The position numbers were made by a program, and so were the translations under genes. Of a stretch of 35,445 bases of DNA, positions 12,106 to 31,292 are shown piece by piece (the first letter of the stretch is position 1; each line of letters starts with the position of its first letter). Source of the stretch: Verrucomicrobiales bacterium (GTDB lineage: Bacteria; Verrucomicrobiota; Verrucomicrobiia; Limisphaerales; JAFMIX01); the NCBI GenBank assembly GCA_017853785.1, contig JAFMIX010000003.1, forward strand, positions 1 to 35,445. The letters run 5' to 3'. The notes under the pieces are model-generated. The model was not told the origin of the DNA. It saw only the letters and a program-made list of their open reading frames with translations, and did no database searches.

Positions 12106-12213
12106 CGGCGGAGAGGGTAGTGAGCAAGGAGAAATTGGCGAGCGGGGAGTGGGGTTATGCGCATGGTTGGGAAGGGATTGTGAATAAGTTGTGCAAAAAG
12201 GCGAAAAATGTAG

Positions 12214-12242
12214 TTGACGAAAAGTGGGGCGGAGTGTTTAAC
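12214..12242 (+). promoter_or_regulatory. Candidate sigma70-type promoter of the dcw cluster
   Basis: TTGACG (12214-12219), 17-nt spacer, TTTAAC (12237-12242), about 58 nt upstream of the mraZ ATG. Confidence 0.5.
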
Positions 12243-12259
12243 AGTGGGGTGTTAAGGGG
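12224..12259 (+). promoter_or_regulatory. Candidate MraZ operator (10-bp-periodic GTGGGG-like repeats)
   Basis: GTGGGG (12224), GTGTTT (12234), GTGGGG (12244), AAGGGG (12254), each 10 bp apart, overlapping the candidate promoter; resembles TGGGN-N5 MraZ boxes. Confidence 0.6.
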
Positions 12260-12299
12260 CAAAAGTGTGCCAAAGTCCCTTGATGTGAACAAAACGTCA

Positions 12300-12755
12300 A
12301 TGCAACCCAGCGAAACGATCTATTACAACTCGCTATTCCGCCACGGGGTGGACGAGAAGCGACGCGTGCAGATACCCGCCAAGTGGTTGCCGACGGAGGG
12401 CTCGGTGGAGTTCACGATGATTTTGTGGCCGAAGGCAAAGGAAGGTCCGTGTTTGCGGGTGCTGCCGCCGCAGGAGATGGCGGAGTTGATGGCGTCGATT
12501 GATGCGATGCCGAACAGCGACCCGAACAAGGGCGTGCTGAAACGTTTTATCGGGAGCGAGTCGGTGCAGGTGGTGGCCGACAAGGCGGGGCGGGTTTGCC
12601 TGCCGGAAGAAATGGCCAAGGCCGCGGGCATCAAGGACGAGGCGGTGCTTGTGGGCTGCTTGGACAAGTTTGAGATTTGGAATCCGAGCGCCTATCCGAA
12701 GGTCAAGGCGTCCGACTCGGTGATGGCGACGGAGGCGTTCAAGCTGATGGAATGA
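12300..12755 (+). CDS. mraZ: Division/cell wall cluster transcriptional regulator MraZ
   Basis: MQPSETIYYNSLFRHGVDEKRRVQIPAKW...DKAGRVCLPEEMAKAAGIKDEAVLVGCLDKFEIWNPSAY; two AbrB-like/MraZ repeats. Start trimmed from 12072. Confidence 0.93.
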   Translation: MQPSETIYYNSLFRHGVDEKRRVQIPAKWLPTEGSVEFTMILWPKAKEGPCLRVLPPQEMAELMASIDAMPNSDPNKGVLKRFIGSESVQVVADKAGRVCLPEEMAKAAGIKDEAVLVGCLDKFEIWNPSAYPKVKASDSVMATEAFKLME

Positions 12756-12758
12756 TTT

Positions 12759-13064
12759 ATGAGCCAGATCAAATCCCTCGTGGCGGGGCGGACGGTGAAC
12801 GGGGCGAAAAGCCTAGGACAATTCCGCAGTGCGAATGATCTGAGTTTGGTTGGTTTCGGTTTGGGCAGGCCGTTGGCCGCCGGGGATACGGACTTTATCC
12901 GGCGCAGTCGCCCCGGGTTTTGGGCCGGAGTCCGCAATAAATTCACGCGTCTGTTCCGCTGGGAAGTGCCAGCGGGTTATGAGGACGAGACAGGGTTCCA
13001 TTTTGGCATTGCGCCCACGCCGCCGCTGGTGGATGCGGGCCGGGGCGCAAGGCCGGTCGAGTGA
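12759..13064 (+). CDS. Small hypothetical protein in dcw cluster
   Basis: 101 aa ORF three nt after the mraZ stop, same strand; MSQIKSLVAGRTVNGAKSLGQFRSANDLSLVGFG. Confidence 0.65.
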   Translation: MSQIKSLVAGRTVNGAKSLGQFRSANDLSLVGFGLGRPLAAGDTDFIRRSRPGFWAGVRNKFTRLFRWEVPAGYEDETGFHFGIAPTPPLVDAGRGARPVE

Positions 13065-13618
13065 TTATGAGCTTGATGCGATTACTGACAGTTGGTCGTT
13101 CACTGAATGAAGTGAAGGGTGCGGGGCGGTATCACATACCCCGCGAAGTCGGGTTGCCGCAGTTCAATTTCGGCAAGTCGGCGGTGAAGTTTTCGAGCCC
13201 GGCGGCAGCGGCGGCGGTCACGGGCGGCGCAACCGGTGAAATTCCGGCCAAGCCGGCAGTCGCCGAGAAAACTCCGGTGGCCCCGGGCGCTCCGATGCCC
13301 AGTGCGGCGAAGAGGCCGACTTCGAGTGGCTGGTTGAAGCGGTCGAATCCCTTCGCCCCGGCGGCGCAGCCTCAGGCTGCAGCGGTGAAGCCGCCGCAGC
13401 AGACGGAACTGACGTTGGATCAGGTGAAGGTGCAGCGCAACGATTTGGCGGAAGCGGATTTTGAGATTGTGCCGAAGCAGGAACTGCCCCGGCAGGCGGA
13501 GTTGAAGCCGTATCGCAAGCCGAACAAGCCGGCGGCGGTGCCGGAAGACGATATGCTGGGCGCGAAGGCTTGGAACTGGCTGGGTTCGCGGCTGTTCGGC
13601 GCGGCGGCGAAGCATTGA
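13061..13618 (+). CDS. Hypothetical Pro/Ala-rich protein in dcw cluster
   Basis: 185 aa ORF; GTG start overlaps the preceding TGA stop, or ATG at 13067; MSLMRLLTVGRSLNEVKGAGRYHIPREVGLPQFNFGKSAVKF. Confidence 0.65.
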   Translation: MIMSLMRLLTVGRSLNEVKGAGRYHIPREVGLPQFNFGKSAVKFSSPAAAAAVTGGATGEIPAKPAVAEKTPVAPGAPMPSAAKRPTSSGWLKRSNPFAPAAQPQAAAVKPPQQTELTLDQVKVQRNDLAEADFEIVPKQELPRQAELKPYRKPNKPAAVPEDDMLGAKAWNWLGSRLFGAAAKH

Positions 13619-13631
13619 CCTGGAATTATGC

Positions 13632-14564
13632 GTGGTGGCCATCTTCGTTCACAAACCAGTTCTGTTGGCCGAGGTGTTGACCGCGCTGCAGCCGAAACCC
13701 GGCGGCAGTTACGTCGATGGCACGCTCGGTGGGGCTGGGCATGCAGCGGCAATTTTGGCGGCGAGCAGCCCGACCGGACGGCTGCAGGGCTGCGACCGCG
13801 ACGGTATAGCGATTGAAGCGGCGGCGGCCCGGTTGGCGGAATTCGCCGGGCGGTTTGAATTGCGGCGCGGCAATTTTTGCGAACTGGCGGAGTGGTTGCC
13901 AGCGCAGAGTTACGACGGGGTCTTGTTGGATCTGGGCGTGAGTTCGCCGCAGCTGGACGCGGCGGAACGCGGGTTCAGTTTCCAGCAGGACGGGCCGCTG
14001 GATATGCGGATGGACGCGCGGCAGCCGGTGACCGCGGCGGATGTGGTGAACACGACCGGGCCGGAAGAGTTGGCGAAGATTTTTTGGGAATACGGTGATG
14101 AGGAACAGTCGCGGCGGTTCGCGAGGGCGATCGCGTTGGACCGGCAGACGCGGCGGTTCACGACGACGAAGCAGTTGGCGGATTTGATCGAACGGCTGGC
14201 GCCGCGGCGCGGCAGCAAGACGCATCCGGCCACGAAAGTTTTTCAGGCCCTGCGGATTGCAGTGAATGACGAGATCGGTTCTTTGAGACGCGGGTTGGAT
14301 GGAGCGGTGAAGATTTTGAGGCCCGGCGGCCGGCTGGCGGTGATCACGTTTCACTCGCTGGAGGACCGGGTGGTGAAAGATTTTGGGCGCGCGCACACGC
14401 GGGACTATGCATTACCTGGAGGGGTGGATGTGCCAGAACTGCGTGTGCCGCGCGACCCGGTTTTGAAATGGGTGATGCGCAAGGCGATCAAGCCTGGCCC
14501 GGCGGAACTGGCGGCGAACCCGCGCAGCCGCAGCGCGCAATTGCGGGTGCTGGAGAAAATTTGA
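13632..14564 (+). CDS. rsmH: 16S rRNA (cytosine(1402)-N4)-methyltransferase
   Basis: HKPVLLAEVLTALQPKPGGSYVDGTLGGAGHAAAIL...YDGVLLDLGVSSPQLDAAERGFSFQQDGPLDMRMD...AVITFHSLEDRVVKDF; GTG start. Confidence 0.96.
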   Translation: MVAIFVHKPVLLAEVLTALQPKPGGSYVDGTLGGAGHAAAILAASSPTGRLQGCDRDGIAIEAAAARLAEFAGRFELRRGNFCELAEWLPAQSYDGVLLDLGVSSPQLDAAERGFSFQQDGPLDMRMDARQPVTAADVVNTTGPEELAKIFWEYGDEEQSRRFARAIALDRQTRRFTTTKQLADLIERLAPRRGSKTHPATKVFQALRIAVNDEIGSLRRGLDGAVKILRPGGRLAVITFHSLEDRVVKDFGRAHTRDYALPGGVDVPELRVPRDPVLKWVMRKAIKPGPAELAANPRSRSAQLRVLEKI

Positions 14565-14565
14565 G

Positions 14566-14958
14566 ATGGCGAAAAACAGAAAAAATCAGTCGGCGGCGGT
14601 CCGGTTCGGTCCGGCGTTGAAGGCCTTTTTGCTGTGCCTGTTCATCGGCGGGTCAGGCGTGGGTTACGTCTGGCAGAAAAATCAGATCTACGAGCTGGGC
14701 AAGCAGATCAAGGCGCGGGAAAACCGGCTGAAGGAATTGCAGGTGCAGAACGAGAAGACGCGGCGGCAGATCGCCATGCTGCACTCGCCGCAGTTCATCG
14801 AACTGCGCATCAAGGAATTGAATCTCGGACTGGTGCAACCCCAGCCGAATCAGATCTGGCGGATGGTCGAGTCGTCAGCGGAGATATCGGGGCTCCCGCG
14901 TCCGCCCGCCGTGCGGCAGCTAGCCGCCCGCCGGAGCACGAATGCAACCATGCCATGA
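14566..14958 (+). CDS. ftsL: FtsL-like cell division protein (single TM plus coiled coil)
   Basis: Position between rsmH and ftsI; one N-terminal TM segment followed by QIYELGKQIKARENRLKELQVQNEKTRRQIA heptad-like region. Confidence 0.75.
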   Translation: MAKNRKNQSAAVRFGPALKAFLLCLFIGGSGVGYVWQKNQIYELGKQIKARENRLKELQVQNEKTRRQIAMLHSPQFIELRIKELNLGLVQPQPNQIWRMVESSAEISGLPRPPAVRQLAARRSTNATMP

Positions 14959-15118
14959 ACTGAAATGATTTTACCGCCGTCCGTGGTGCCGTCGGAGAGG
15001 AACCGATCGCTGCGGACGGTTGGTAGTTTTGCGGTGGGGCACTGAAGACGATTTCGCCGCCGCCCGTGACGCATCGGTTGAGGGCCGATGTTAGCGGGCG
15101 GCTGGTGACTTTTAGGAC

Positions 15119-16999
15119 ATGGTAAAGCAACTACAATTCAAGCGGCTGTTCTGGCTGGCGCTGCTGCTCGTCTTTGGATTCGCGGGCCTCGGGCTCCGGC
15201 TCGGCTCGCTCCAGGTGCTCCGGCACGAAGAGCTCTCCAACCTCGCGCAGCGCAACACCCAGCGCACCTTCTCCCTGGAACCGCGCCGTGGCGACATCCT
15301 CGACGCCAAAGGAAACCTGCTCGCGACGAGCGTCTTCGTGAAGACCGTTGCCGCCGATTGGAACTTCATCGGCCCGCGCGTACGCGAAGTCGCCCATGCC
15401 GTCGCTCCGGTGCTCGGGCTGGACGAAGCGGGGTTGGTGCAATTTCTCGAATCCCGCCGCCTGCGTAAAAATTCCAAGGGGGAGACCGTCACCAACGCCT
15501 TCGTCGTCCTGAAGAATAAAGTTTCCGCCGAAACCTGGGAGCGGTTGCAGCAGACCATGGCCAATCTTTCCTTCGGCGTGGAAGAAAAGAAACTCCCCAA
15601 AGCCGAGCAAGCCTTCTACCGCAACCTCCGCGCGAAAGCCATCGTCGCCGACCCGCGCAGCGACCAGATCCGGGTCTATCCCAACCAGCAACTCGCCGCG
15701 CATGTCCTGGGCTATGTCGGTCTCGCCGACCGCATCGTCAACAGCAACCGCGTGAGCGAACTCGCCGGAGCGGAAGGCATCGAGCGCGTGCTGAACTCCA
15801 AGCTCTCTGGCGTCTCCGGCTGGCGCGTCACCGAAACCGACCGCCGCAATCGCGAACTGCTGACCCTTCGCGAACAGGAAGTCGCGCCGCACGACGGCCT
15901 CAACGTTGTGCTGACCATTGATTCCATGATCCAACACATCGCCGAGACGGCCCTGGCCGAGGCGGTGCAGAAACATTCGCCCATCAGCGCCTCTGCCATC
16001 GTCGTGCGCCCCCGCACTGGGGAAATCTTGGCGATGGCCACGCTGCCGAACTACGACCCGAACAATCCCGGGGCCGCTGCCGCCGCCGCCCGCCGCAACC
16101 GCGTCATCAGCGACCTTGCCGAACCTGGCTCGACCTTCAAAGTGGTCGTCGTTTCCGGCGCCCTGAATGACGGGCTGGTGCGGCTGACGGATAAGTTCGA
16201 CTGCGAGCGGGGAAAATTCGCCTTCGCCGGGCGGGTGCTCCACGACCACGACCCCTACGACACCCTCACGGTGGAGAACATCATCACCAAATCGTCGAAC
16301 ATCGGCTCGGCCAAAATCGGCATCCTGCTCCAGGAAGCACGGCTGCACCAATACATCCGCGACTTCGGTTTTGGCACCGCCACGGGAATTCCCTTGAGCG
16401 GCGAAGTGCGCGGCATTGTGAATCCCGTCAAGAGCTGGTCCAAGGTTTCCATCGCGCAGATTCCGATGGGCCACGGCGTCGCCGTGACTCCGTTGCAAAT
16501 GATCATGGCCATGAGCGCCATTGCGAACGACGGCGTCTTGATGCGCCCCTTGCTCGTGGATCGGCTCGAAGACGAGACCGGCCATGCTGTCGCGCAGTAT
16601 CCGCCGCAACGCGTCCGCCAAGTCATCAGCGCCGCCGCCGCGCACGAAATGGTCAAGGCTCTCAAGACCGTCGTCACCACGGATGGCACGGCCGCCAAGG
16701 CGGCGCTCGACTATTACACCGTGGCCGGCAAGACCGGCACGGCACAGAAGGTCATCAATGGCCAATACGCCAACGACAAATTTTTCTCCTCCTTCATCGG
16801 CTTCTTCCCGGCGGAGAATCCCGAGCTGTGCATCTCGGTCGTTTTGGACGAACCGAAAGGCGGCCACTATGGCGGCCAAGTGGCGGCCCCCGCCTTCAAG
16901 CAGATCGCCGAACGTGCGGCCAACTACCTCAACATCCGTCCCGACCGCGAAACTGAAGCCAAACCTGGCAAACCAACCAACCTCACCAAGAAATCTTGA
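15119..16999 (+). CDS. ftsI: Peptidoglycan D,D-transpeptidase FtsI (penicillin-binding protein)
   Basis: AEPGSTFKVVVVSGAL (SxxK), SSNIGSAKIG (SxN), AGKTGTAQKV (KTG); N-terminal TM and PBP dimerisation region. Confidence 0.95.
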   Translation: MVKQLQFKRLFWLALLLVFGFAGLGLRLGSLQVLRHEELSNLAQRNTQRTFSLEPRRGDILDAKGNLLATSVFVKTVAADWNFIGPRVREVAHAVAPVLGLDEAGLVQFLESRRLRKNSKGETVTNAFVVLKNKVSAETWERLQQTMANLSFGVEEKKLPKAEQAFYRNLRAKAIVADPRSDQIRVYPNQQLAAHVLGYVGLADRIVNSNRVSELAGAEGIERVLNSKLSGVSGWRVTETDRRNRELLTLREQEVAPHDGLNVVLTIDSMIQHIAETALAEAVQKHSPISASAIVVRPRTGEILAMATLPNYDPNNPGAAAAAARRNRVISDLAEPGSTFKVVVVSGALNDGLVRLTDKFDCERGKFAFAGRVLHDHDPYDTLTVENIITKSSNIGSAKIGILLQEARLHQYIRDFGFGTATGIPLSGEVRGIVNPVKSWSKVSIAQIPMGHGVAVTPLQMIMAMSAIANDGVLMRPLLVDRLEDETGHAVAQYPPQRVRQVISAAAAHEMVKALKTVVTTDGTAAKAALDYYTVAGKTGTAQKVINGQYANDKFFSSFIGFFPAENPELCISVVLDEPKGGHYGGQVAAPAFKQIAERAANYLNIRPDRETEAKPGKPTNLTKKS

Positions 17000-17727
17000 A
17001 TCCCTCCCGCCCCCAACTTTTCGGAATGCTCGCCGGCCTGTTCCTCGCCGCCGGGCTCGTGTGCTCCGCCATGCTCGCCACCGGCGCGTGGGTGAAGATC
17101 AAGAACTCGCAATTCATCAACGTCAAAGGCTCCGTGCAGAAAAGCATCGAGTCTGACCTCGCCATCTGGTCGGGCAGCTTTCAGACCGAGGCTGAAACCT
17201 TGCTCGCCGCGCAGAAAAAAATCCGGGATGACCGCGCGCTCGTCGAAAAATTTCTCCAGAGCGCGGGCGTGAAGGAATTCGCCTTCCTGCCCATCGGCAT
17301 CGAGGAGCTCAAGGCCACGCAGAAATCTGCCGATGGTTTTGTTTCGCACCGGACCACCGGCTATCGCCTGCGCCAGGGCGTATCGGTGGAGTCCGCGGAC
17401 GTGGACCGGTTGGACCGGCTCGACACCACGCCGCTCGTCGAGCAGGGGGTGCTGTTCACCGTTGCTCCCATTCAATTCATCTACACCCGCGCCGGCGACA
17501 CGAAGGTCGAGATGCTCGCCGCCGCGACCAAGGATGCCCGCACGCGTGCGGAGCAGATTGCACGACAGGGAGGCTGCACCATCGCGCGCTTGCATAGCGC
17601 GGACCAAGGCATCTTCCAGATCACGCCCCGGCACAGCGGCGCGACCAGTTGGCAGGGCGAGAGTGACACTTCTTCGCGCCAGAAAACCATCACCGCCGTC
17701 GTGACCGCCAGCTTTATGCTGAAATAA
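16996..17727 (+). CDS. SIMPL domain-containing (DUF541-like) membrane-anchored protein
   Basis: N-terminal TM; INVKGSVQKSIESDLAIWSGSFQTEAETLLAAQKKI...VEMLAAATKDARTRAEQIARQGG. TTG start overlaps the ftsI TGA (TTGA). Confidence 0.75.
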   Translation: MNPSRPQLFGMLAGLFLAAGLVCSAMLATGAWVKIKNSQFINVKGSVQKSIESDLAIWSGSFQTEAETLLAAQKKIRDDRALVEKFLQSAGVKEFAFLPIGIEELKATQKSADGFVSHRTTGYRLRQGVSVESADVDRLDRLDTTPLVEQGVLFTVAPIQFIYTRAGDTKVEMLAAATKDARTRAEQIARQGGCTIARLHSADQGIFQITPRHSGATSWQGESDTSSRQKTITAVVTASFMLK

Positions 17728-17731
17728 AATT

Positions 17732-19123
17732 GTGGAAGCGCGCTCATTGAAATTTATTGCCGCGGCCTGCGGCGGGGAAATCCTGCGGGGCGCGGTGGGT
17801 GCGATGGTGACGCGCGTGTGCATCGATTCCCGCCGGGCACAGTCCGGTGATTTGTTCTTTGCCATCAAAGGCGACCGCTTCGATGGCCATGACTTTCTCG
17901 AAGAAGTCGCGGCCAAGAACGTGGCGGCCGTCGTCATCGCGCGAAATCGCAAGCCGGCTCAATTGCCTGACTGCGCGGTGATCGTTGTGACCGAGGTGCG
18001 CGCGGCGCTGGGCCAGTTCGCGGCGGCGCATCGGGCGGAACTGGATTTGCCCGTCATCGCCGTCGGCGGTTCGAACGGCAAGACGACGACGAAGGATCTG
18101 ATTGCTGCCGTGCTGCGGCAGAAGTTCACCACGCTCGCGAGTGCGGCGAGCTTCAATAACGACATCGGCGTGCCGCTCACACTGTCGCAGTTGACGCGCG
18201 AACATCACGCCGCCGTGGTGGAAGTCGGCACGAATCATCCCGGCGAACTCGCGCCGCTGGTGCGGATGGCCGCACCGCAGTTCGGCGTCATCACGAACAT
18301 CGGGCGGGAGCATCTGGAATTTTTCGGCGACCTCGCTGGCGTGGCGGCGGAGGAGGGCAAACTCGCCGAGCTGCTGCCTGCGACGGGGAAATTATTTTTG
18401 AACGGCGACGACCCGACGACGGAAGTCATGGGCCTGCGTACTCCGGCTAAAGTTGTACGCGTGGGGCTGGGGCGCAGCTGCCACTGGAACGCGGGCGCGA
18501 TCCGCGGTGATCGCCGCGGCACGACCTTCAACGTCGTCGCGCCGGTGGTGGGGTTGGTCGGCGAGTATCGCATCAATTTGCTGGGGCGGCATCAGGTGGT
18601 GAACGCGCTCTTTGCCATCGCGGTCGGCGCGGAGCTGGGTTTGAGCCGCGAGGAAATCCAGCGTGGCTTGAGCGCGTGTCCGCCGGCGAAGATGCGGCTG
18701 CAACTTTGGGAAGCGAACGGCGTGACGGTGCTGGACGACAGTTACAACTCGAACGCGGATTCCATGGCCGCCGCGCTGCAAGTGCTGGCGGAATTGCCAG
18801 GCGCCGGGCGGCGGATTGCGGTCCTCGGCGACATGGCCGAGCTCGGCGTGCACGCGGAGGCCGCGCATGCGGAAGTCGGGCAGCGCGCTGCGGCGGCGGG
18901 CGTGGGGCAGTTGTTCGCCGTGGGCCAGATGGCGGGTGTGCTGGCGGCGGCGGCGCGGGCGGCGGGCCTGACGCGCATCTTTGAATTTCCGGATGCGGCG
19001 GCGGCGGCCGGCGCGGTGGAAAATTTTGTGAAGCCGGGCGATGTGGTGTTGTTGAAAGCGTCGCGGGCGGTGCGGCTGGAGCAGGTGGCGGAACGGTTGC
19101 AGGCCGAGCCGGCCGGGAAGTGA
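17732..19123 (+). CDS. murF: UDP-N-acetylmuramoyl-tripeptide--D-alanyl-D-alanine ligase
   Basis: DSRRAQSGDLFFAIKGDRFDGHDF...AVGGSNGKTTTKDLIAAVL...FNNDIGVPLTLSQL...LDDSYNSNADSMAAAL...VLGDMAELG; GTG start. Confidence 0.95.
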   Translation: MEARSLKFIAAACGGEILRGAVGAMVTRVCIDSRRAQSGDLFFAIKGDRFDGHDFLEEVAAKNVAAVVIARNRKPAQLPDCAVIVVTEVRAALGQFAAAHRAELDLPVIAVGGSNGKTTTKDLIAAVLRQKFTTLASAASFNNDIGVPLTLSQLTREHHAAVVEVGTNHPGELAPLVRMAAPQFGVITNIGREHLEFFGDLAGVAAEEGKLAELLPATGKLFLNGDDPTTEVMGLRTPAKVVRVGLGRSCHWNAGAIRGDRRGTTFNVVAPVVGLVGEYRINLLGRHQVVNALFAIAVGAELGLSREEIQRGLSACPPAKMRLQLWEANGVTVLDDSYNSNADSMAAALQVLAELPGAGRRIAVLGDMAELGVHAEAAHAEVGQRAAAAGVGQLFAVGQMAGVLAAAARAAGLTRIFEFPDAAAAAGAVENFVKPGDVVLLKASRAVRLEQVAERLQAEPAGK

Positions 19124-19127
19124 TGCG

Positions 19128-20270
19128 ATGTTATATTATTTGAGCCATTATCTTTTGAACGCGGCCCACGGCACGGAGTGGGCGGCGGCGCTCTCGCCGT
19201 TGCGCGTGTTCAAATACATCACGTTCCGCAGTGCGGGCGCGGCGGTGACGGCGCTGGTGTTGAGCTGGCTGTTCGCGCCGCGGATGATTGCGTGGCTCAA
19301 GCAGATAAAGTTCGGCCAGGAATACGCCGACAAGGCGGAGGGCGCGGGCGTGGCGCACGCGACGGTGAAACGCGGCACGCCGACGATGGGCGGGTTGTTG
19401 ATCGTCTCGACGCTGACGATCTCGACGTTGCTGTGGGCGGACTGGAATCCGCTGGTGGCCTTGACGCTGCTGGCGTTGGTGACGTTCTGCGGGCTGGGCT
19501 TCCACGATGACTACACAAAAATCGCGCAAGGCAATGCCCGTGGTGCCACGTCCGTGGTGAAACTGGTTGTGCAGACGACTTTGGCCTTGGGCATCGGCAT
19601 TTATCTGTGGCTCGTGCCGGCGACGAGCAAGCTGGTTACGGACATCATGGTGCCGTTCTACAAGCATCCCGTGGTGACGGGTGCGGTCGGGCTGGGCCTG
19701 TTGCTGATCGTGCTGACCATCGTGGGCAGTTCCAACGCGGTGAACCTCACGGACGGGCTGGACGGATTGGCGATCGGCTGTACGCTGATCGTTTCGTTCG
19801 CGCTGCTGGTGTTGACGTATCTCGCGGGGAATTTCAAGACGGCGAGCTACCTGCAGATTCCGTTCGTGCCGGGCGCGGACGAATTGACGGTGTTTTGCGC
19901 GGCGCTCATCGGCGCAGGGTTGGGCTTTCTTTGGTATAACTGCCATCCGGCGCAGGTGTTCATGGGTGACACGGGGTCGCTCGCGCTCGGTGGTGCGCTC
20001 GGCGTGATAGCGGTCCTGATCCATCAGCCGTTTGTGTTGTTCATCGCCGGCGGGGTGTTCGTGCTGGAGGCCGCCTCCGTGATGCTGCAGACGGGGTGGT
20101 TCAAATTCACCCGCAAACGCTATGGCATCGGGCGGCGGATTTTTCTGATGGCTCCGCTGCATCATCATTTCCAAAAAAAGAGCTGGCACGAGACGCAGGT
20201 CGTGATCCGGTTTTACATCCTGTGCATTTTGTTCGTAGTGCTCGCGCTGAGCACTCTGAAAATCCGCTGA
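19128..20270 (+). CDS. mraY: Phospho-N-acetylmuramoyl-pentapeptide-transferase
   Basis: GTPTMGGLLI, DDYTKI, NAVNLTDGLDGLAIG, MGDTGSLALGGALG, APLHHHFQKKSWHETQVVIRF. Confidence 0.97.
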   Translation: MLYYLSHYLLNAAHGTEWAAALSPLRVFKYITFRSAGAAVTALVLSWLFAPRMIAWLKQIKFGQEYADKAEGAGVAHATVKRGTPTMGGLLIVSTLTISTLLWADWNPLVALTLLALVTFCGLGFHDDYTKIAQGNARGATSVVKLVVQTTLALGIGIYLWLVPATSKLVTDIMVPFYKHPVVTGAVGLGLLLIVLTIVGSSNAVNLTDGLDGLAIGCTLIVSFALLVLTYLAGNFKTASYLQIPFVPGADELTVFCAALIGAGLGFLWYNCHPAQVFMGDTGSLALGGALGVIAVLIHQPFVLFIAGGVFVLEAASVMLQTGWFKFTRKRYGIGRRIFLMAPLHHHFQKKSWHETQVVIRFYILCILFVVLALSTLKIR

Positions 20271-20520
20271 TCGCCATGCCCATTTTACGACCCGACAAAA
20301 ACCTGATGCCCGGTGCGCCCCGCCGCGGGAAATCAGCGTTACCCCGGCGTGCTTTTACTCCTTGCGCCACCCCGGGTTCGTTGCTAAAAACACTGCGAGC
20401 AGCGGCGAAAAATTCAGGCGACAACAGCAAGGCGATTTCACTTTCACCGACTGACTTCGGCTTCGACCAGATACGGAACGGCAACCACCTGGGCGGGGCA
20501 TTTTTACCCGATGACAATTT

Positions 20521-20564
20521 AGTCCGCCGGGGAATTTTCCGAGGAAAAAATTCCCAGGCGGACT
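20521..20564. repeat. Long imperfect inverted repeat (stem-loop) upstream of LysM gene
   Basis: Arms AGTCCGCCGGGGAATTTT (20521-20538) and AAAATTCCCAGGCGGACT (20547-20564): 17 of 18 bp pair, 8-nt loop. Confidence 0.8.
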
Positions 20565-20621
20565 CAGACTCAACACAACCAACAACCACCTCAAAGAAAG
20601 GACGCAATCAGCGTTAAGCAA

Positions 20622-21416
20622 ATGAAGCAACCGAATCCGTTCAACTCGCCTCAAACCCCACAGGACCGTCTCAACCAAAGCCGCACCCGCCTGCGCCTCG
20701 CCGTTTTCGGCGCGCTCGCGTTATGCCTGCTGGTGCTCGTGCCGCTGCTCGTTCAGGGATGCAAGCGCGAAGAGCCCCCTGCGCCGCCGGTTGACTCCGG
20801 TTTTCCGCCGCTGGTCACGGACACCAATCTGCCGCCGCTCGATTCGGCACACACCAACGTCACGTTGCCGCCCATCAGCTTCCCGCCGATGACCAACCCG
20901 GCCATTCCGCCCGTCGCACCTATCACCCCCGAAGTCCCGCCTGTGACCCCGGTCGCCGCCGATGGCGAATACACCGTGGCCAAAGGTGATTCCTTCTACA
21001 CCATCGGCCAGAAGCACGGTGTGTCCATCAAGGCCATCAGCGAGGCCAACCCCGGCGTGGATTCCACCAAGCTCAAGATCGGCCAGAAGCTGATCCTCCC
21101 CGCGCCCACCGCCGCCGCCCCGACCGCCACCCCCGGCGCTCCCTTCGCGGATGTCGCCAGCGGTGACAAGACCTACACCGTGAAGTCCGGCGACACGCTC
21201 ACCCGCATCGCCAAGACGCAGGGAGCGACGGTCAAGGCCATCAAGGCCGCGAACAACCTGACCACCGACCGCATCAAGGTCGGCCAGAAGCTGAAGATTC
21301 CCGGCAAGGCTGCGGCTGCCGCGCCCCTCCCTGTGACGGAACCGGCCCCGACCATCGTGCCGCCGCCGGCCCCGGAAACCGCGCCGGCTTTGCCGCCGCT
21401 CGCAGCCCCGAGATGA
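20622..21416 (+). CDS. LysM domain protein (two LysM repeats), probable lipoprotein or membrane-anchored
   Basis: LLVLVPLLVQGCKREE lipobox-like; EYTVAKGDSFYTIGQKHGVSIKAISEANPGVDSTKLKIGQKLILP and TYTVKSGDTLTRIAKTQGATVKAIKAANNLTTDRIKVGQKLKIP. Confidence 0.92.
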   Translation: MKQPNPFNSPQTPQDRLNQSRTRLRLAVFGALALCLLVLVPLLVQGCKREEPPAPPVDSGFPPLVTDTNLPPLDSAHTNVTLPPISFPPMTNPAIPPVAPITPEVPPVTPVAADGEYTVAKGDSFYTIGQKHGVSIKAISEANPGVDSTKLKIGQKLILPAPTAAAPTATPGAPFADVASGDKTYTVKSGDTLTRIAKTQGATVKAIKAANNLTTDRIKVGQKLKIPGKAAAAAPLPVTEPAPTIVPPPAPETAPALPPLAAPR

Positions 21417-21440
21417 TAGATTAAATAGTAAACATTCCAT

Positions 21441-21473
21441 CCCGGACGCCGGCTCCCCTCCCCGGCGTCCGGG
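21441..21473. repeat. GC-rich perfect inverted repeat between LysM gene and ftsW
   Basis: Arms CCCGGACGCCGG (21441-21452) / CCGGCGTCCGGG (21462-21473), 9-nt loop; no U-tract follows. Confidence 0.8.
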
Positions 21474-21488
21474 GCAGCGACAGGTCGA

Positions 21489-22640
21489 ATGAAATTGGCC
21501 GTCAATACTTTGGTTTTATGTGTGTGCGCACTCCTTGCCCTGGGGATGGTGATGCTTTACAGTGCGAGCATGGCCGATGAGGTGCGCAACCGGCAGGTGG
21601 GCGCTCACTACCTCATGGCGCAACTCGTCTGGTGCACGCTCGGTTTGGTCGGCGGCTGCGTCGTGGCGCTGCTTGACTACCGCACGCTGAAAAAAATCAC
21701 CCTTCCGCTGCTGCTGCTCGCCCTGTTTCTCCTGCTGCTGGTGCTGATTCCGCACATCGGCCTCAAGGTCAACGGGGCGCGCCGCTGGCTCGGCTTCCAC
21801 AGCATCCGCTTCCAGCCTTCTGAGCTGGCGAAGCTGGCCCTCATCGTCTTCCTCGCGTGGTATGGCGAGCGGTATCAGCGCCAGATGCACACCTGGATGC
21901 AGGGAATTGTCATTCCCGGTGCGTTCATCGGGGCGACGCTCCTGCTAATCTTCGTCGAACCGGACCGCGGTTCCACCATCCTGCTCGCGGCGGTGAGCGC
22001 CGCGATGTTGCTGCTCGCGGGCGTGCGCTGGAAATACTTCGTGCCGCCGGTGCTGGCCGGCGTGGCGGCGCTGGCACTTTCCATCTGGCATGACCCGATG
22101 CGCATGAAGCGCATCTTCAGCTGGCTTGATCTCGAGCAGACCAAGTCCGGCGTCGGCTACCAGGCGTATCAGGCGATGCTCGCGCTGGGGGCGGGCGGTT
22201 GGACCGGTCTCGGGCTTGGCAACGGCCGCCAGAAACTCGGCTTCGTGCCGGAACATCATACGGATTTCATTCTCTCCATCATCGGCGAGGAACTCGGCTT
22301 CGTGGCCACCTTTGCCGTCATCGTCGGCTTCATCCTCATCGTTGTGAGCGGACTTTACATCGCCCGGCACGCGCGCGACACCTTCGGGCTGTTGCTCGGG
22401 GCGGGCCTCACAATCCTCATCGGCCTCCAAGCCTTCATCAACATCGCCGTGGTCACCAGCGTCTTTCCGAACAAAGGGCTGCCCCTGCCGTTCATCAGTT
22501 ACGGCGGCTCGAATCTCCTGATGATGCTCGTGTGCGTCGGCTGCTTGCTGAGCATTGCCCGGCAGGCGCGCGAACCGGCGGCTGTGCCGGACCGCGCGGT
22601 TGAAACCGACGAATTCCCCGGCCTCCAAACGGCGCCATGA
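21489..22640 (+). CDS. ftsW: Peptidoglycan glycosyltransferase FtsW (SEDS family)
   Basis: KVNGARRWLGFHSIRFQPSELAKLALIVFLAWY...GGWTGLGLGNGRQKLGFVPEHHTDFILSIIGEELGF...GLPLPFISYGGSNLL. Confidence 0.96.
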   Translation: MKLAVNTLVLCVCALLALGMVMLYSASMADEVRNRQVGAHYLMAQLVWCTLGLVGGCVVALLDYRTLKKITLPLLLLALFLLLLVLIPHIGLKVNGARRWLGFHSIRFQPSELAKLALIVFLAWYGERYQRQMHTWMQGIVIPGAFIGATLLLIFVEPDRGSTILLAAVSAAMLLLAGVRWKYFVPPVLAGVAALALSIWHDPMRMKRIFSWLDLEQTKSGVGYQAYQAMLALGAGGWTGLGLGNGRQKLGFVPEHHTDFILSIIGEELGFVATFAVIVGFILIVVSGLYIARHARDTFGLLLGAGLTILIGLQAFINIAVVTSVFPNKGLPLPFISYGGSNLLMMLVCVGCLLSIARQAREPAAVPDRAVETDEFPGLQTAP

Positions 22641-23758
22641 AATCGCCCGCCGCCACCAGCCCCCGCATCGCCATCGCCTGTGGCGGCACCGGCGGCCACC
22701 TCTTCCCCGGCATCGCCATCGGGGCGGAACTGCTCCAGCGCGGTGGCGCGGTCACGTTGCTCATCTCCCCCAAGGACGTGGATCAGCAGGCCGTGCGCAG
22801 CGTTGGCGGCATGGAAGTCGTCACGCTGCCGGCGGTGGCGTTGCAGGACGGCAATTATTTTTCGTTCGCCCGCAGTTTCTGGCAGGCGCGGGGCGCGGCC
22901 CTGAAACATTTCGCCGCCCAGCCGCCGCAGGCCGTGCTCGCGATGGGCGGCTTCACCGCCGCGCCGCCGGTGTTCGCCGCGAAAAAGTTCCGCGCCAAAA
23001 CCTTCCTCCACGAGTCCAACACCATCCCCGGTCGCGCCAACCGCTTCCTCGCCCGCCGTGTGGATGCGGCCTTCGTCGGTTTCCCCGAGGCCGCCCACCA
23101 GTTGCGCGCCCGCGACATCATGGTCGTCGGCACGCCCGTGCGGCCGCAGTTCGCACCGTCGCCGTTTCCGGAAATGCCGACCTCGATCTACCGCACGTCG
23201 CTCGGGCTCGATCCGGCCCGGCCCGTGGTGTTCGTCACCGGCGGCAGCCAGGGCGCGACCGGCTTGAACGATCTCATCCTCGCCGCGCTGCCCGCGCTGG
23301 CCGACCGGGCGGACGTCTGGCAATGGCTGCATCTCACCGGTCCGCGCGATGTCGAGCGGGTCAAAGCCGCCTACGCCGCGCACGGTTGCAAGGCGGTGGT
23401 GCAACCGTTCCTCGTGGAGATGGAAGCCGCTTTCCACGCCGCCACCGCCGTTGTCAGCCGCGCGGGGGCCTCGTCGCTCGCGGAGATCGCGGCGATGAAA
23501 CTTCCCGCGTTGCTTGTGCCACTGCCGACGGCGGCGGACGACCACCAACGCCACAACGCCCGGGCGTTCGCGACTGCGGGCGCGGCGCGCGTGTTGGAGC
23601 AGGCGGCCGCCACGCCGGAAAAGACCGCCGCGCTGCTGCGCGAGTTGATGGAAGCCCCGGCAGCGCGGACGGAAATACAAGTGGCACTGGCGAAACAGCA
23701 CACGCCGACAGCGGCGGCCCGGATCGCGGAAAACATCTTAAACGCTTTGAAGTCTTGA
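22637..23758 (+). CDS. murG: UDP-N-acetylglucosamine--N-acetylmuramyl-(pentapeptide) pyrophosphoryl-undecaprenol GlcNAc transferase
   Basis: IACGGTGGHLFPGIAIGAEL...HESNTIPGRANRFLAR...VTGGSQGATGLNDLI...AVVSRAGASSLAEIAAMKLPALLVPLPTAADDHQ; ATGA overlap with ftsW. Confidence 0.95.
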   Translation: MKSPAATSPRIAIACGGTGGHLFPGIAIGAELLQRGGAVTLLISPKDVDQQAVRSVGGMEVVTLPAVALQDGNYFSFARSFWQARGAALKHFAAQPPQAVLAMGGFTAAPPVFAAKKFRAKTFLHESNTIPGRANRFLARRVDAAFVGFPEAAHQLRARDIMVVGTPVRPQFAPSPFPEMPTSIYRTSLGLDPARPVVFVTGGSQGATGLNDLILAALPALADRADVWQWLHLTGPRDVERVKAAYAAHGCKAVVQPFLVEMEAAFHAATAVVSRAGASSLAEIAAMKLPALLVPLPTAADDHQRHNARAFATAGAARVLEQAAATPEKTAALLRELMEAPAARTEIQVALAKQHTPTAAARIAENILNALKS

Positions 23759-23760
23759 GT

Positions 23761-24687
23761 ATGAACGCCACCTTGCAATCCTCTGACCTTGCTGCGGAAC
23801 TCGCGGCGCGCGTCACGGCAGCGACGGTCATCCGGCGCGACGAGCCGTTGGCCAAGCGCACGACGATGCGCGTAGGCGGGCCGGCGCATATCCTGGTCGA
23901 GCCGGCTTCAGACGAAGACCTGGCGGCGGTGGTGCGGTTCTGCGGCGAGCAGCGGCAGGAATTTTTCGTGCTGGGCCGCGGTTCGAATCTGCTCGTGCGC
24001 GACGGCGGTTTTCGCGGTGTGGTGATTTCGCTGGCGGCGGCGCATTTCAGCAGGGTGACGGTGGATGGGGAGCGCTTGCGTTGCGGCGCGGGGGCGAAGT
24101 TGAAGGAAGTGGCGGCTGCGGCGAAACGCGCGAGCCTCGGCGGATTGGAATTTCTGGAAGGCATTCCCGGCAGTGTCGGCGGCGCGTTGCGGATGAACGC
24201 GGGCGCGATGGGCGGGGCGACGTTTGATTTTGTGGAGTCGGTGCGCGTCATGGATCGGAGCGGGCTGATCGGCGAACTTTCCCGGCGCGCCATCGCGGTG
24301 GAGTATCGCTCGTGCCGTTTGTTCCAGACGCATCTGGCGCTGGGTTGTGTATTCCACGGCGTGCCCGCGCCGCGCGAGGCGATCGAAGCGAAGCTGAACG
24401 AATTCAACCGCAAGCGCTGGGAAGCGCAGCCGGCCAAGCCGAGCGCGGGTTGCACTTTCAAGAACCCCGCGACGATTCCGGCAGGCAAGCTGGTGGACGA
24501 ACTCGGGCTGAAAGGCGCGCACGTCGGTGGCGCGCGGGTCTCGCAGGAACACGGCAATTTCATCGTGAACGACGGTCGGGCGACTGCGGCGGACGTGTTG
24601 CGGTTGATCGAGGTCATCCGGCAGCACGCGCGGGCGGAACGAGGAATCGAACTGGAGACGGAGGTGGAGATCATCGGTGAAGACTAA
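23761..24687 (+). CDS. murB: UDP-N-acetylmuramate dehydrogenase
   Basis: TTMRVGGPAHILVEP...VLGRGSNLLVRDGGFRGVVI...GIPGSVGGALRMNAGAMGG...AGCTFKNP...LGLKGAHVGGARVSQEHGNFIVN. Confidence 0.95.
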   Translation: MNATLQSSDLAAELAARVTAATVIRRDEPLAKRTTMRVGGPAHILVEPASDEDLAAVVRFCGEQRQEFFVLGRGSNLLVRDGGFRGVVISLAAAHFSRVTVDGERLRCGAGAKLKEVAAAAKRASLGGLEFLEGIPGSVGGALRMNAGAMGGATFDFVESVRVMDRSGLIGELSRRAIAVEYRSCRLFQTHLALGCVFHGVPAPREAIEAKLNEFNRKRWEAQPAKPSAGCTFKNPATIPAGKLVDELGLKGAHVGGARVSQEHGNFIVNDGRATAADVLRLIEVIRQHARAERGIELETEVEIIGED

Positions 24688-24712
24688 ACCATCCAAAAGA
24701 AAGGCGACCGAA

Positions 24713-25615
24713 ATGAAAATCACTGTGATGTTGGGCGGGCCGAGTGCGGAGCGGGAAGTGTCCTTGCGTTCCGGAGCGGCGGTGGCGGACGCGTTGGTTT
24801 CGCGCGGTTATGATGTCGAGGAACTGGATCCGGCCGGGGACGACTGGACGTTACCGCCGGACACCGATGTGGTGTTCCTCGCGCTGCACGGCACCTATGG
24901 CGAGGACGGCACCGTGCAGCGGGCGTTGGATGAGCAGGGCGTGCCTTACACCGGCTGCGGTGCGGAGGCAAGCCGCATCGGGTTCGACAAGATTTTGAGC
25001 AAGCGCGCGTTTCTTACGGCGGGCGTGCCGACGGCGAAGTTCGCGGTGATCAATTCGGTGGCCGCGCCGTGGCCGGCGGGCTGGGAATTGCCGGTGGTGC
25101 TGAAGCCGGCGTGCCAGGGTTCGAGCGTGGGGCTGCATTTCGTGGAGTGCGCGCAGGAATGGCGTGGCGCCTTGGCGGAAAGTTTCCGCTATGGTTCGCC
25201 CGTTTTGCTCGAAGAAAAAATTTGCGGACGGGAGACGACTGTTGGCATCCTTGACGGCGTGGCGCTGCCCGTGGTCGAGATCCGGCCCCGGAGCGGCGCT
25301 TATGATTATCGGTCCAAATACACCACCGGCGCGTCGGAATATTTTTGCCCGGCGGATTTCGATGCGGCGACGACGCAGCGGATCCAGGCGGCCGCGCTCG
25401 CGGCGTTTCACGCCATCGGCGGGCGGGATTATAGCCGGGTGGACGTGATGGTGACGCCGGCTGGCGAGCCGGTCGTGTTGGAGGTGAATACTCTGCCGGG
25501 CATGACGGCGACGAGCCTGTTGCCTAAAGCGGCCGCGGCGGCGGGGCTGAAATTTCCGCTGCTGTGCGAGCGCATGGTGGAACTGGCATTGCAGCGCGCA
25601 CCGGTGGCGGCGTGA
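24713..25615 (+). CDS. ddl: D-alanine--D-alanine ligase
   Basis: MKITVMLGGPSAEREVSLRSG...FLALHGTYGEDGTVQRALDEQGVPYTGCGAEAS...VVLKPACQGSSVGLHF...VLEVNTLPGMTATSLLPKAA; alternative GTG start at 24677 overlapping murB. Confidence 0.95.
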   Translation: MKITVMLGGPSAEREVSLRSGAAVADALVSRGYDVEELDPAGDDWTLPPDTDVVFLALHGTYGEDGTVQRALDEQGVPYTGCGAEASRIGFDKILSKRAFLTAGVPTAKFAVINSVAAPWPAGWELPVVLKPACQGSSVGLHFVECAQEWRGALAESFRYGSPVLLEEKICGRETTVGILDGVALPVVEIRPRSGAYDYRSKYTTGASEYFCPADFDAATTQRIQAAALAAFHAIGGRDYSRVDVMVTPAGEPVVLEVNTLPGMTATSLLPKAAAAAGLKFPLLCERMVELALQRAPVAA

Positions 25616-25627
25616 TGCGGATTTTTT

Positions 25628-26593
25628 ATGGCTTGGTTCAAACGAAAATATCAAAATCGGCGTCTGGATCGGCGCCGTGTCTTGTTGGACGTCAAACTGC
25701 GCGCCGACCAGGTGCGCGCCACCCGGATGCGCTGGGGCGCGATCGCGGTGACGGTCTCGGCGGGGACGATCTTCGGGCTGTATCTCGTCTGGCGCACGGG
25801 CGAATGGGCGGTGAATCATTTCCTGTATCAGAACAAGGATTTCGCCGTGCAGCAGATCGAGGTGCAGACCGACGGTGTGGTGGCGGTGGAACAATTGCGG
25901 CGCTGGGCCGGCGTGAAGGCGGGCGACAACCTGCTCGCGCTCGATCTCAGCCGCGTGAAGCGGGATCTTGAACTCGTGCCGCAGGTGAAGACCGCCGCCA
26001 TCGAGCGCGTGTTGCCCCGCACGTTGCGCATTCGGGTAACGGAACGCCAACCGCTCGCGCAGGCTTATGCGCCGCAGCCCCGGCCTGACGGGCGCGGCTA
26101 TGACATGAAGGTTTTCCAGGTGGACAACGAAGGCGCGGTGATGGCGCCGCTCGGGTTGCGGCAGCGGGCGACGCCGCTGGCGCAGGCGGGCGAGCAGTTG
26201 CCGACGCTCGCGGGGATCGACCCGATCAATCTGGCGAACGGCAAGAAGCTGGAGTCGCCACAGGTGCGGGCGGGGCTGGATTTGATCGTGGCGTTCGAGC
26301 GCTCGCCGATGGTGGGCTTGGCGGACTTGGCACGCATCGATATTTCTTCGCCGGGCGTGCTCATCGCGACAACGGGGCAGGGCAGCGAAGTCACTTTTGC
26401 GTTGACCGATTTTGAGCGGCAGTTGAAACGCTGGCGGCTGGTCCATGACCGGTGTCTGGCGGAGGGCAAAGGCATCGCCGCGCTCGATCTGGCCGTGCCC
26501 AGCAACATCCCGGCCCGCACCGTGGATGCCCGCGCCGTCGTCCCCATCGCGCCCAAAGCCAAACCCGCAACCTCCAGGAAACGCAATGTTTAA
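25628..26593 (+). CDS. ftsQ: Cell division protein FtsQ (POTRA/FtsQ-DivIB)
   Basis: TM segment then FAVQQIEVQTDGVVAVEQLRRWAGVKAGDNLLALDLSRVKRDLELVPQVKTAAIERVLPRTLRIRVTERQPLA; position before ftsA. Confidence 0.88.
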   Translation: MAWFKRKYQNRRLDRRRVLLDVKLRADQVRATRMRWGAIAVTVSAGTIFGLYLVWRTGEWAVNHFLYQNKDFAVQQIEVQTDGVVAVEQLRRWAGVKAGDNLLALDLSRVKRDLELVPQVKTAAIERVLPRTLRIRVTERQPLAQAYAPQPRPDGRGYDMKVFQVDNEGAVMAPLGLRQRATPLAQAGEQLPTLAGIDPINLANGKKLESPQVRAGLDLIVAFERSPMVGLADLARIDISSPGVLIATTGQGSEVTFALTDFERQLKRWRLVHDRCLAEGKGIAALDLAVPSNIPARTVDARAVVPIAPKAKPATSRKRNV

Positions 26594-27815
26594 CCAACCT
26601 TCCGTCATCGTCGGTCTCGAGATCGGCACCTCGAAAGTCTGCGCGGTCGTCGGCGAACGCAACGCCGAGGGCGCGCTGAACATCATCGGCGTCGGTCAGG
26701 CGAAGTCCCGCGGCGTCCGCAAGGGCGAGATCACCGATGCCACCGCCGTGGAAGAAGATGTGCGCAACGCCATCGTCGAGGCCGAGCAGATGGCCAATGT
26801 CGAGATCCGGAGCGTGTATCTCGGCGTCAGCGGCGCGCACATCCGCGGCTTCAGCAACCGTGGCGTCCATCCGGTGGTTTCCGCGGACCGCGAGATCACC
26901 GCCGAGGACGTGCAGGACGTGGTGAAGAACGCGAAGGCGGTGAACGTGCCGCAGGAGAACCACATTCTGCACGCCATCCGCCAGCACTTTCTCGTGGACG
27001 GACAGGATCGCATCATCAATCCCGTCGGCATGCTGGGGGCGCGGCTTGAGGTGGATGTCCACGTCATTCATGGAAATTTCAACCGGCTCCAGAACGCAAT
27101 CCGCATCGTCAAAGGAATGCAGTTGGAGGTGGAGGACGTGGTGTTCAACGGGCTTGCAGCGTCGCTCGCCCTGCTGACCAAGGAGCAGAAAGAACTTGGC
27201 TCGCTCGTGATCGACCTGGGCGGCGGCACGACGGATTACGCGGTTTCGGCCGGGGGCATCATCCAGCACACCGGCGTGCTTGCGGTGGGCGGCGATCACG
27301 TCACGAACGACCTCGCCATCGGCTTGAAGATTGCGCTGGGTCGCGCGGAAGGTTTGAAGCTGGAGCACGGCGCGGCGTTGCCCGATGCGGCGGCGCGGGG
27401 CCAGACCATCACGATTCCCGGCGAGGTGGGCTTGCCGGCAAAGACGCTGAACCTCGATCACCTGCGGCGCATAATGCACCTGCGGCTCGAGGAGATATTT
27501 AATTTGATCGGTCAGGATTTGGAGCGGGCGGATATGCTCGGTCATCTGCGCGGCGGCATTTTTCTCTGCGGCGGCGGCGCGCACATTCCGGGGATTGCCA
27601 AACTGGCGCAGGATATTTTCGGACTGCACGTTTCCGTGGGCAAGACTAACACCATCAGCAGCCTTAAGTCCGCGCTGGACCAGCCGGAGTTTGCGGCTCC
27701 GATCGGGCTGGTGAAATTCGGCTCGTTGCGCGCGCGGCAGCGGCCCAAGCCGAGTTTGCTGCCGTTTGAATTGGGCAAGACGTTCGATCGCCTCTTCAGC
27801 CGCATCGGTGCTTAA
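26586..27815 (+). CDS. ftsA: Cell division protein FtsA
   Basis: VIVGLEIGTSKVCAVVGE...SLVIDLGGGTTDYAVSAGG...GIFLCGGGAHIPGIAKLAQDIF; C-terminal amphipathic-like GKTFDRLFSRIGA. Overlaps the ftsQ end by 8 nt. Confidence 0.94.
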   Translation: MFNQPSVIVGLEIGTSKVCAVVGERNAEGALNIIGVGQAKSRGVRKGEITDATAVEEDVRNAIVEAEQMANVEIRSVYLGVSGAHIRGFSNRGVHPVVSADREITAEDVQDVVKNAKAVNVPQENHILHAIRQHFLVDGQDRIINPVGMLGARLEVDVHVIHGNFNRLQNAIRIVKGMQLEVEDVVFNGLAASLALLTKEQKELGSLVIDLGGGTTDYAVSAGGIIQHTGVLAVGGDHVTNDLAIGLKIALGRAEGLKLEHGAALPDAAARGQTITIPGEVGLPAKTLNLDHLRRIMHLRLEEIFNLIGQDLERADMLGHLRGGIFLCGGGAHIPGIAKLAQDIFGLHVSVGKTNTISSLKSALDQPEFAAPIGLVKFGSLRARQRPKPSLLPFELGKTFDRLFSRIGA

Positions 27816-27827
27816 CCCCACAAAACC

Positions 27828-29069
27828 ATGAGCACGCCAAATGAAACTTCCGCCCGCAACATCAATATCATCGGCGTCGGCGGCGCCGGCCAGAATCTGG
27901 TGGCGCAACTTGTGGCGCTGGCGCTGCCCGGGCTGCGCTGCGCGGTGCTGAACACCGCCGCGCCGACAGGGCCGATGGAATTTATTCCGCTCGCCGCCAA
28001 ACCGGTGCGCGATCTGGAAGTGGCGGACGGCGCGCAGGTGGATGCCGCGCTGGCCCCAGCCCAGCCGCAGTTGCAGGCGTGGCTCGCGGGGGCGGACGTG
28101 GTGTTTATCGTCGCGGGTTTGGGCGGCAAGACCGGCAGCGCGTTCGCGCCGGCGGTGGCGCGGTTGGCGAAGGCGACAGGCGCGTTGACGTTGGGTTTTG
28201 TGACGACGCCGTTCGCGTGCGAGGCGAGCCGACGGGCGCGGCAGGCGGAACAGGGCTTGGTGCGGTTGCGGGCCGAGGCGGATGGCGTGATCGCGCTGCC
28301 GAACGAAAAAATCGTGCGGCTGATCGACGAGAACACCAGCCTGCTCGACACGTTCAAGATTTCCAACGAACTGCTCACCGCCGGTCTGGCCGGGGTGTGG
28401 CGGTTGCTGCATTGCCCCGGGCTAATCCCGATCCATTTTGACGATCTGCGCGAGCTGATCCGCAGCGGCAAGGCGGAGAATGTCTTCGCTACCGCCGAGG
28501 CCGCCGGACCGAACCGTGGCCGGGAAGTGGTGGAGCAATTGGTGGCGCATCCGCTGCTCGATGGCGGGCGCGCGCTCGGCGCGGCGCCGGCGGCGTTGGT
28601 GAGCATCGTGGGCGGGCCGGGACTTTCGCTGGCGGAAGTGAATCGCGTGATGGAACAGCTCAACCGCCAGTGCGAAGGCGCGCAGGTGCTGATGGGTGCG
28701 GCGATCGACGAGACTTTCAAGGACCGCCTCGCGGTGACGATGATTGTGGCGCGCGGGGAAGTCGCCAAGCCCGTTGCCCCGGTCGGGGAATTGGACACGC
28801 AATTCCTCCACGCCGCGGAGCCGGTGCGGCCGCCCTCGCGGTTCGTGCCGCCGCCGCCGGCATTGTCGCCGGAAAAAATCGAGCAACTGGCCGCGCGACG
28901 GATGACCGGCGGCGGGCGCACGCGCAAAAGCGGACCGAAGATGACGCAGGAGCAGTTGCCGCTGGAGATCGTTTCCAAAGGGCGCTTCGACAAGAGCGAG
29001 CCGACGGTGCGAAACGGAGAAGACCTCGATCAGCCGACTTTCATCCGGCGCGGGATGGTGCTGAACTGA
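27828..29069 (+). CDS. ftsZ: Divergent FtsZ-like tubulin/FtsZ family protein
   Basis: NINIIGVGGAGQN...NTAAPTG...GADVVFIVAGLGGKTGSAFAP...GFVTTPFACEASRRARQAEQGL...PNEKIVRLIDENTSLLDTFKISNELL...GPGLSLAEVNRVM...GAAIDETFKDRLAVTMIV; C-terminal DLDQPTFIRRGMVLN; directly 3' of ftsA. Confidence 0.85.
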   Translation: MSTPNETSARNINIIGVGGAGQNLVAQLVALALPGLRCAVLNTAAPTGPMEFIPLAAKPVRDLEVADGAQVDAALAPAQPQLQAWLAGADVVFIVAGLGGKTGSAFAPAVARLAKATGALTLGFVTTPFACEASRRARQAEQGLVRLRAEADGVIALPNEKIVRLIDENTSLLDTFKISNELLTAGLAGVWRLLHCPGLIPIHFDDLRELIRSGKAENVFATAEAAGPNRGREVVEQLVAHPLLDGGRALGAAPAALVSIVGGPGLSLAEVNRVMEQLNRQCEGAQVLMGAAIDETFKDRLAVTMIVARGEVAKPVAPVGELDTQFLHAAEPVRPPSRFVPPPPALSPEKIEQLAARRMTGGGRTRKSGPKMTQEQLPLEIVSKGRFDKSEPTVRNGEDLDQPTFIRRGMVLN

Positions 29070-31186: not shown

Positions 31187-31292
31187 CGGTTGGTTGGGAT
31201 CTTGATCTTCGCCGCGGGCGTTATGTTGAGCACGCCGGCGTGCATTGATTCCGTTTGCGGCGGCGGCGTTTTTCTGGCACATACGGCGCATC

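Follow-up and report, generated by a model that had tools for sequence, protein, structure and literature searches.

Sequence evidence for repeated erosion of the FtsZ GTPase site, with retention of the FtsA-binding tail, in the Verrucomicrobiota

The treadmilling of FtsZ, driven by GTP, is regarded as what powers bacterial division. In Staphylococcus aureus FtsZ, the catalytic water is positioned by a swing of residue D210 (E. coli D209) and its surroundings are shaped by D213 and R143, N208 and Q48 hold a K+ ion and D46 belongs to the Mg2+ shell; each of the changes D46A, N208L, D210N and D213N singly abolishes assembly, and E. coli FtsZ is inactivated in vivo by changes at the same positions (PMC8936486). 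The T7-acid mutants E. coli FtsZ(D212A) and B. subtilis FtsZ(D213A) have low GTPase activity and still join rings and constriction (PMC4383033, PMC8079713). Since these mutants enter rings alongside FtsA, a slow or FtsA-templated FtsZ may be workable for division. The FtsZ of Nitrosopumilus maritimus, whose T7 residues are lost, did not assemble into filaments upon expression in yeast (PMC3684127).

Divergent FtsZ proteins are already on record from the phylum considered here. Hou 2008 described ftsZ of M. infernorum as accelerated and ftsA as not, with the data not shown (PMC2474590), and a 2023 family study reported verrucomicrobial FtsZ to be fast-evolving (PMC9871819). The FtsZ of V. spinosum was called canonical by Yee 2007 (PMC1845146), and a 2025 study found ftsZ to be essential in that organism (PMC12283558). 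Thus, the fast evolution of verrucomicrobial FtsZ is known; in the open-access literature that we searched, we found no report of the missing T7 residues, the one-acid pattern or the tail-only remnants described below.

The gene studied here lies in a 35,445-nucleotide stretch of DNA, hereafter the window, from a draft genome of the order Limisphaerales (Verrucomicrobiota), and closes a dcw cluster with the following parts:

12072..25615, forward strand: the remaining dcw cluster, in the order mraZ, rsmH (mraW), ftsI, mraY, ftsW, murG, murB, ddl
25628..26593, forward strand: ftsQ, with a POTRA_1 domain
26586..27815, forward strand: ftsA, 370 bits against TIGR01174 (cut-off 175.9), with ATP-site glycines and R300/E303 intact
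27828..29069, forward strand: ftsZ, 413 aa, the sole FtsZ/tubulin gene detected in the genome

Only 12 bases separate the end of ftsA from the start of ftsZ, and the cluster is intact, in keeping with a preliminary description of this DNA that had placed the gene directly after ftsQ-ftsA. Pfam identified mraZ, rsmH, ftsI, mraY, ftsW, murG and ddl, and murB was called from its translation only. Within the 227-aa mraZ reading frame (12072-12755) the MraZ domain is confined to residues 164-215; the true start probably lies further downstream, or else an N-terminal extension is present. A 524-aa reading frame at 31245-32819 has no Pfam match.

The encoded protein matches the Pfam families Tubulin (8.8e-21, 75.5 bits) and FtsZ_C (2.8e-16, 60 bits), both above cut-off, and it matches B. 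subtilis FtsZ, for which a structure is solved, at E 1.1e-48 (phmmer). Its AlphaFold model, built on an alignment of three sequences, has a pLDDT of 49 and is usable for the N-terminal half only; in a fold search with this weak model every listed match was an FtsZ, the best at E 2e-18. The two domains, the dcw position after ftsQ-ftsA and the C-terminal peptide are, as far as sequence can tell, those of an FtsZ orthologue. The score against TIGR00065, the NCBIfam ftsZ equivalog, is 187.2 bits and falls below the cut-off of 295.2. Scans of viral sequences for relatives of the protein found none. To judge from its sequence, the window protein is FtsZ by descent and does not carry the signatures by which a canonical FtsZ GTPase was tested for, as a survey of its loops illustrates (E. 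coli numbering, all on the forward strand):

27873..27896, forward strand: T1 loop GVGGAGQN (canonical GVGGGGGN), N24 kept
27951..27965, forward strand: T2 loop NTAAP (canonical NTDAQ), D45A and Q47P
28008..28037, forward strand: T3 region RDLEVADGAQ (canonical KGLGAGANPE), glycines lost (GLGAGA to DLEVAD)
28122..28142, forward strand: T4 tubulin signature GGKTGSA, with G107K, T110S and G111A
28209..28235, forward strand: T5/H5 PFACEASRR, with the nucleotide contacts P134, E138 and R142 kept
28296..28310, forward strand: T6 LPNEK, N165 kept
28428..28445, forward strand: T7 catalytic loop PIHFDD, with N207P, D209H and A211D, D212 kept; a single-acid T7
28980..29066, forward strand: C-terminal tail GRFDKSEPTVRNGEDLDQPTFIRRGMVLN, the FtsA-binding peptide as predicted from sequence
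29022-29066, forward strand: tail segment DLDQPTFIRRGMVLN, named in the preliminary description and confirmed in position

All motifs that the preliminary description had named were recovered at the positions it gave for them. Neither the tubulin signature [SAG]GGTG[SAT]G, here GGKTGSA, nor the T7 pattern NxDxxD, here PIHFDD, is present, whereas the nucleotide contacts E138, R142 and N165 all are. The term 'degenerate GTP-binding', used in that description, therefore holds for the damaged T2, T3, T4 and T7 loops and does not hold for P134, E138, R142, N165 and N186, which are intact. In short, the T5, T6 and H7 contacts, on the base/phosphate side, are preserved, and the changes fall in T2, T3, T4 and T7, on the surface where two neighbouring subunits build the composite active site.

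In S. aureus numbering, four of these residues differ in the window FtsZ, namely Q48, N208, D210 and D46, the last being replaced by Ala exactly as in the mutant described above; R143 and D213 are retained. Changes at these four positions make canonical, assembly-coupled GTP hydrolysis unlikely, by analogy with S. aureus. The earlier expectation of poor GTP hydrolysis or altered polymerisation was consequently a reasonable one, given what D46A, N208L and D210N do there. We consider it probable that the window protein is an FtsZ tethered by FtsA, with a reduced active site of the single-acid type, and that it hydrolyses GTP slowly or not at all. On this reading the inter-subunit site built from T2, T3, T4 and T7 would be partly dismantled; GTP would still be bound through the retained T5 and T6 contacts and be hydrolysed slowly, if at all; filaments would be at best slow or FtsA-templated; and the protein would serve division mainly as a scaffold hanging on the conserved, actin-like FtsA, with FtsA as the putative driver. 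The observations beneath this reading are the sequences themselves, the residue losses, the constraint, the synteny and the dependence between the T7 acids. Some residual activity may persist, because D212 is kept beside an extra, adjacent D211; the mutational data come from S. aureus and E. coli, and a co-adapted interface could accommodate such residues.

Set against canonical FtsZ (TIGR00065; E. coli, B. subtilis, S. aureus), the window protein shares the Tubulin and FtsZ_C domains, the place after ftsA, E138/R142/N165 and the tail; it differs in having lost catalytic residues of T2, T3, T4 and T7 and in being more divergent than its own FtsA within the order. FtsZ(D212A) and FtsZ(D213A) are engineered proteins expressed beside the wild type, whereas the window protein keeps D212 and lacks D209, N207 and D45. 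In T4 the nearest natural parallel, from sequence comparison, is N. maritimus FtsZ, where AGKAGSA stands against GGKTGSA in the window and K107, S110 and A111 are common to both. However, N. maritimus is thought to divide by Cdv, whereas the window genome has the ftsQ/A/W/I cluster. We know of no alternative division system for the window's lineage.

The same kind of change recurs well beyond this genome. Of the 146 genomes of the order only 33 reach the TIGR00065 cut-off, as do 23 of 113 in the class sample and 8 of 87 in the phylum sample; as an outside control, 13/13 control genomes have a match above it, alongside published conservation statements (PMC8936486). We extracted 260 FtsZ sequences from the Verrucomicrobiota, and the loop alignment across the phylum that the preliminary description had called for reveals repeated erosion. 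N207 is kept in 118, D209 in 137 and D212 in 170 of about 260 sequences, the complete T7 triad N207/D209/D212 in only 62/260, and all fourteen listed core residues in 50; E138 (260/260), R142 (228/258) and N165 (225/260) are far better preserved. On an FtsA tree of the order (151 rows, with six outgroups), standing in for the species tree, we counted 23 changes at N207, 22 at D212, 17 at D209 and 16 at T108, compared with 4 at R142 and 0 at E138. These counts do not separate gain from loss; the changes are read as losses because the residues are canonical outside the phylum. As read from these alignments, in which T7 is uncertainly placed in the most decayed sequences, erosion of the GTPase site is phylum-wide and repeated. 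The earlier suspicion that the divergence is partly lineage-wide was thus right but understated. The individual changes listed at that stage are real and in part ordinary for the phylum, where T1 GVGGAG and Ser110 are common; P207, A45, P47, K107 and the loss of the T3 glycines exceed the pattern of the clade. By contrast, the idea that nucleotide binding and catalysis had been lost equally finds no support, since E138 and R142 rank with the best-conserved positions of the GTPase domain (n=260) and selection appears to keep one T7 acid in place.

The acids at positions 209 and 212 are both present in 78 sequences; 61 have 209 only, 110 have 212 only and 11 have neither (odds ratio 0.13), and many of the 'neither' sequences are the most decayed ones, where T7 aligns poorly. 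Collapsed by family the table reads 38/28/45/5 (p 1.4e-4). Under a four-state model fitted to an FtsA tree of 254 sequences, dependent evolution is favoured (LR 33.9, 4 d.f., p about 8e-7); the tree is a gene tree, and the fit and its p value are approximate. The estimated loss rate of D209 is 0.60 in the presence of D212 and 0.09 in its absence, and that of D212 is 0.59 with D209 and 0.20 without it. Loss has mostly struck only one of the two T7 acids, so that a single carboxylate persists in most eroded lineages, and the window protein, of the D212-only type, is like them in this. We read the single T7 carboxylate as the usual selected minimum; that most lineages retain it speaks for continuing selection on some T7 function. 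In family f63 (L061-L064, L066, L067, L071, L073) FtsZ scores are otherwise high and D212 is replaced by Thr, Ala, Ser or Gly (GLINLDFATL), a mirror image of the D209 loss in the window.

Selection for one acid would also be expected of a different but working inter-subunit GTPase with normal treadmilling, in which H209 is co-adapted with E/Q/P207, with A108 or K107 and with D211-D212. Indeed, H209 is stable in many families (31 sequences), where position 212 is mostly acidic and T4 often reads GGGAGTGI, and the retention of E138, R142 and N165 under a dN/dS of 0.24 would suit such a site. Nevertheless, the tree shows no significant coupling between changes at T4 T108 and those at T7 D209 (LR 7.4, p 0.12), the window's P207, A45, P47, K107 and missing T3 glycines go beyond the clade pattern, and D46A, N208L and D210N each stop assembly in S. 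aureus (PMC8936486). We therefore regard a co-adapted, fully working site as unlikely, and a tethered FtsZ with a reduced active site as the better account.

The window gene is neither artefactual nor broken. Sequencing or assembly error can be rejected because a sister MAG of the same genus (L032/L033) carries the same G107K, D209H and D211-D212. A pseudogene or frameshift was likewise rejected: the broken frame of the sister reflects runs of N in its scaffold. Between the two genomes dN/dS is 0.24 for FtsZ and 0.16 for FtsA, and the last 34 compared FtsZ residues are 34/34 identical, with dN 0 while dS is 0.38. With this ratio and this tail, ftsZ of the window is no pseudogene but a functional gene under purifying selection, of which the tail is the most constrained part.

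The motif [LIV]DxP..R lies near the C-terminus in 252/260 sequences, and most of the remaining eight leave the contig or meet a scaffold gap, with G196 (f56) having a divergent end. The window reads DLDQPTFIRR against YLDIPAFLRK in E. coli, and GEDLDQPTFIR is the lowest-entropy 11-residue stretch of the whole FtsZ in the order (0.72 bits versus 0.86 for the T4 loop). Its partner FtsA is strongly conserved: R300 is present in 255/255 sequences and position 303 is always E or D (255/255), and these are residues which we take to contact the FtsZ tail; the ATP-site glycines G214, G336 and G337 are also present in 255/255. FtsA is better conserved than FtsZ in 127/143 genomes of the order, and identity to G023 is 0.70 for the window FtsA and 0.46 for the window FtsZ. 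Between E. coli and canonical members of the order it is FtsZ that is the better conserved (0.41 identity versus 0.35 for FtsA).

Decay goes furthest in genus g75 (family f21), where two genomes, G135 and G102, carry after ftsA a reading frame with no recognisable GTPase motif and with the tail kept:

L272:7031-8329, forward strand: post-ftsA ORF of genus g75
L273:1639-3216, reverse strand: post-ftsA ORF of genus g75, start uncertain

No Pfam FtsZ match was found in this ORF, and tubulin searches of G102 (94% complete) and G135 (92%) gave no match below E 0.38. The two proteins share 32% identity over their whole length, differ hardly at all in the final 40 residues, and end in NLDEPTYLRK. By profile comparison they match the recognisable FtsZs of their family at E 3.9e-18 over the full length, and the body without the tail still does so at E 1.8e-5 (score 46, where the best of 60 column shuffles reached 23). 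These profiles identify them as FtsZ descendants that have shed the GTPase motifs and kept the FtsA hook. In family f60 FtsZ is nearly as decayed (27-78 bits), again with the tail kept; its genomes possess the AMO/pMMO family, marking them as methanotrophs, and f60 is probably Methylacidiphilaceae. The sequences thus suggest a gradient within the phylum, from canonical FtsZ through the single-acid T7 of the window to an unrecognisable GTPase domain with a tail in g75, with f60 close to that end.

Such extremes, together with the repeated losses and the absence of FtsZ from Planctomycetota and Chlamydiota, two related phyla (PMC5147048, PMC12283558), invite the view that the lineage divides without needing FtsZ and that the gene is decaying neutrally towards loss. 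This is improbable in the face of purifying selection on the window gene and its unchanged tail, the tail motif in nearly all sequences including those of g75, the lack of any complete loss where the post-ftsA stretch was recovered and read, and the essentiality of ftsZ in V. spinosum (PMC12283558).

Genome G000, to which the window belongs, is a draft MAG (2.38 Mb, 84% complete) with one detected FtsZ/tubulin gene, and ftsZ is single in 30/30 and 141/146 relatives, many of them more than 95% complete. Second hits in G027 and G133 are gene pieces. Of five genomes of the order that seemed to lack ftsZ, G072, G076 and G144 have no real ftsA match either, the contig being missing, and in G102 and G135 the remnant stands after ftsA instead. 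Weak second genes of the tubulin/FtsZ superfamily accompany the main ftsZ in G240 and G244 (family f71) and, in other classes, in G271, G279, G298, G297 and G299; those of f71 may be bacterial tubulins. A further, canonical FtsZ, which the preliminary description had considered, or a tubulin might carry out division beside a sub-functionalised window copy; this is most improbable, for although 84% completeness leaves some room, no second gene was found in G000, its relatives have one ftsZ each as a rule, no tubulin match below E 0.38 came from G102 or G135, and the window copy itself sits in the dcw cluster.

Taken together, these patterns lead us to propose, tentatively, that across the Verrucomicrobiota FtsZ has repeatedly ceased to be a GTP-driven cytomotive filament and become an FtsA-bound scaffold. 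If this is true, the phylum would preserve intermediates on the way from canonical FtsZ to the FtsZ-independent division of Planctomycetota and Chlamydiota, which bears on the open question of the route by which FtsZ was lost in the PVC superphylum. As a statement on the minimal FtsZ active site, the single-acid pattern is concrete and can be tested. The eroded lineages, some of which belong to culturable groups, would then be natural mutants in which to ask which part of FtsZ is indispensable and whether an active FtsZ is needed at all.
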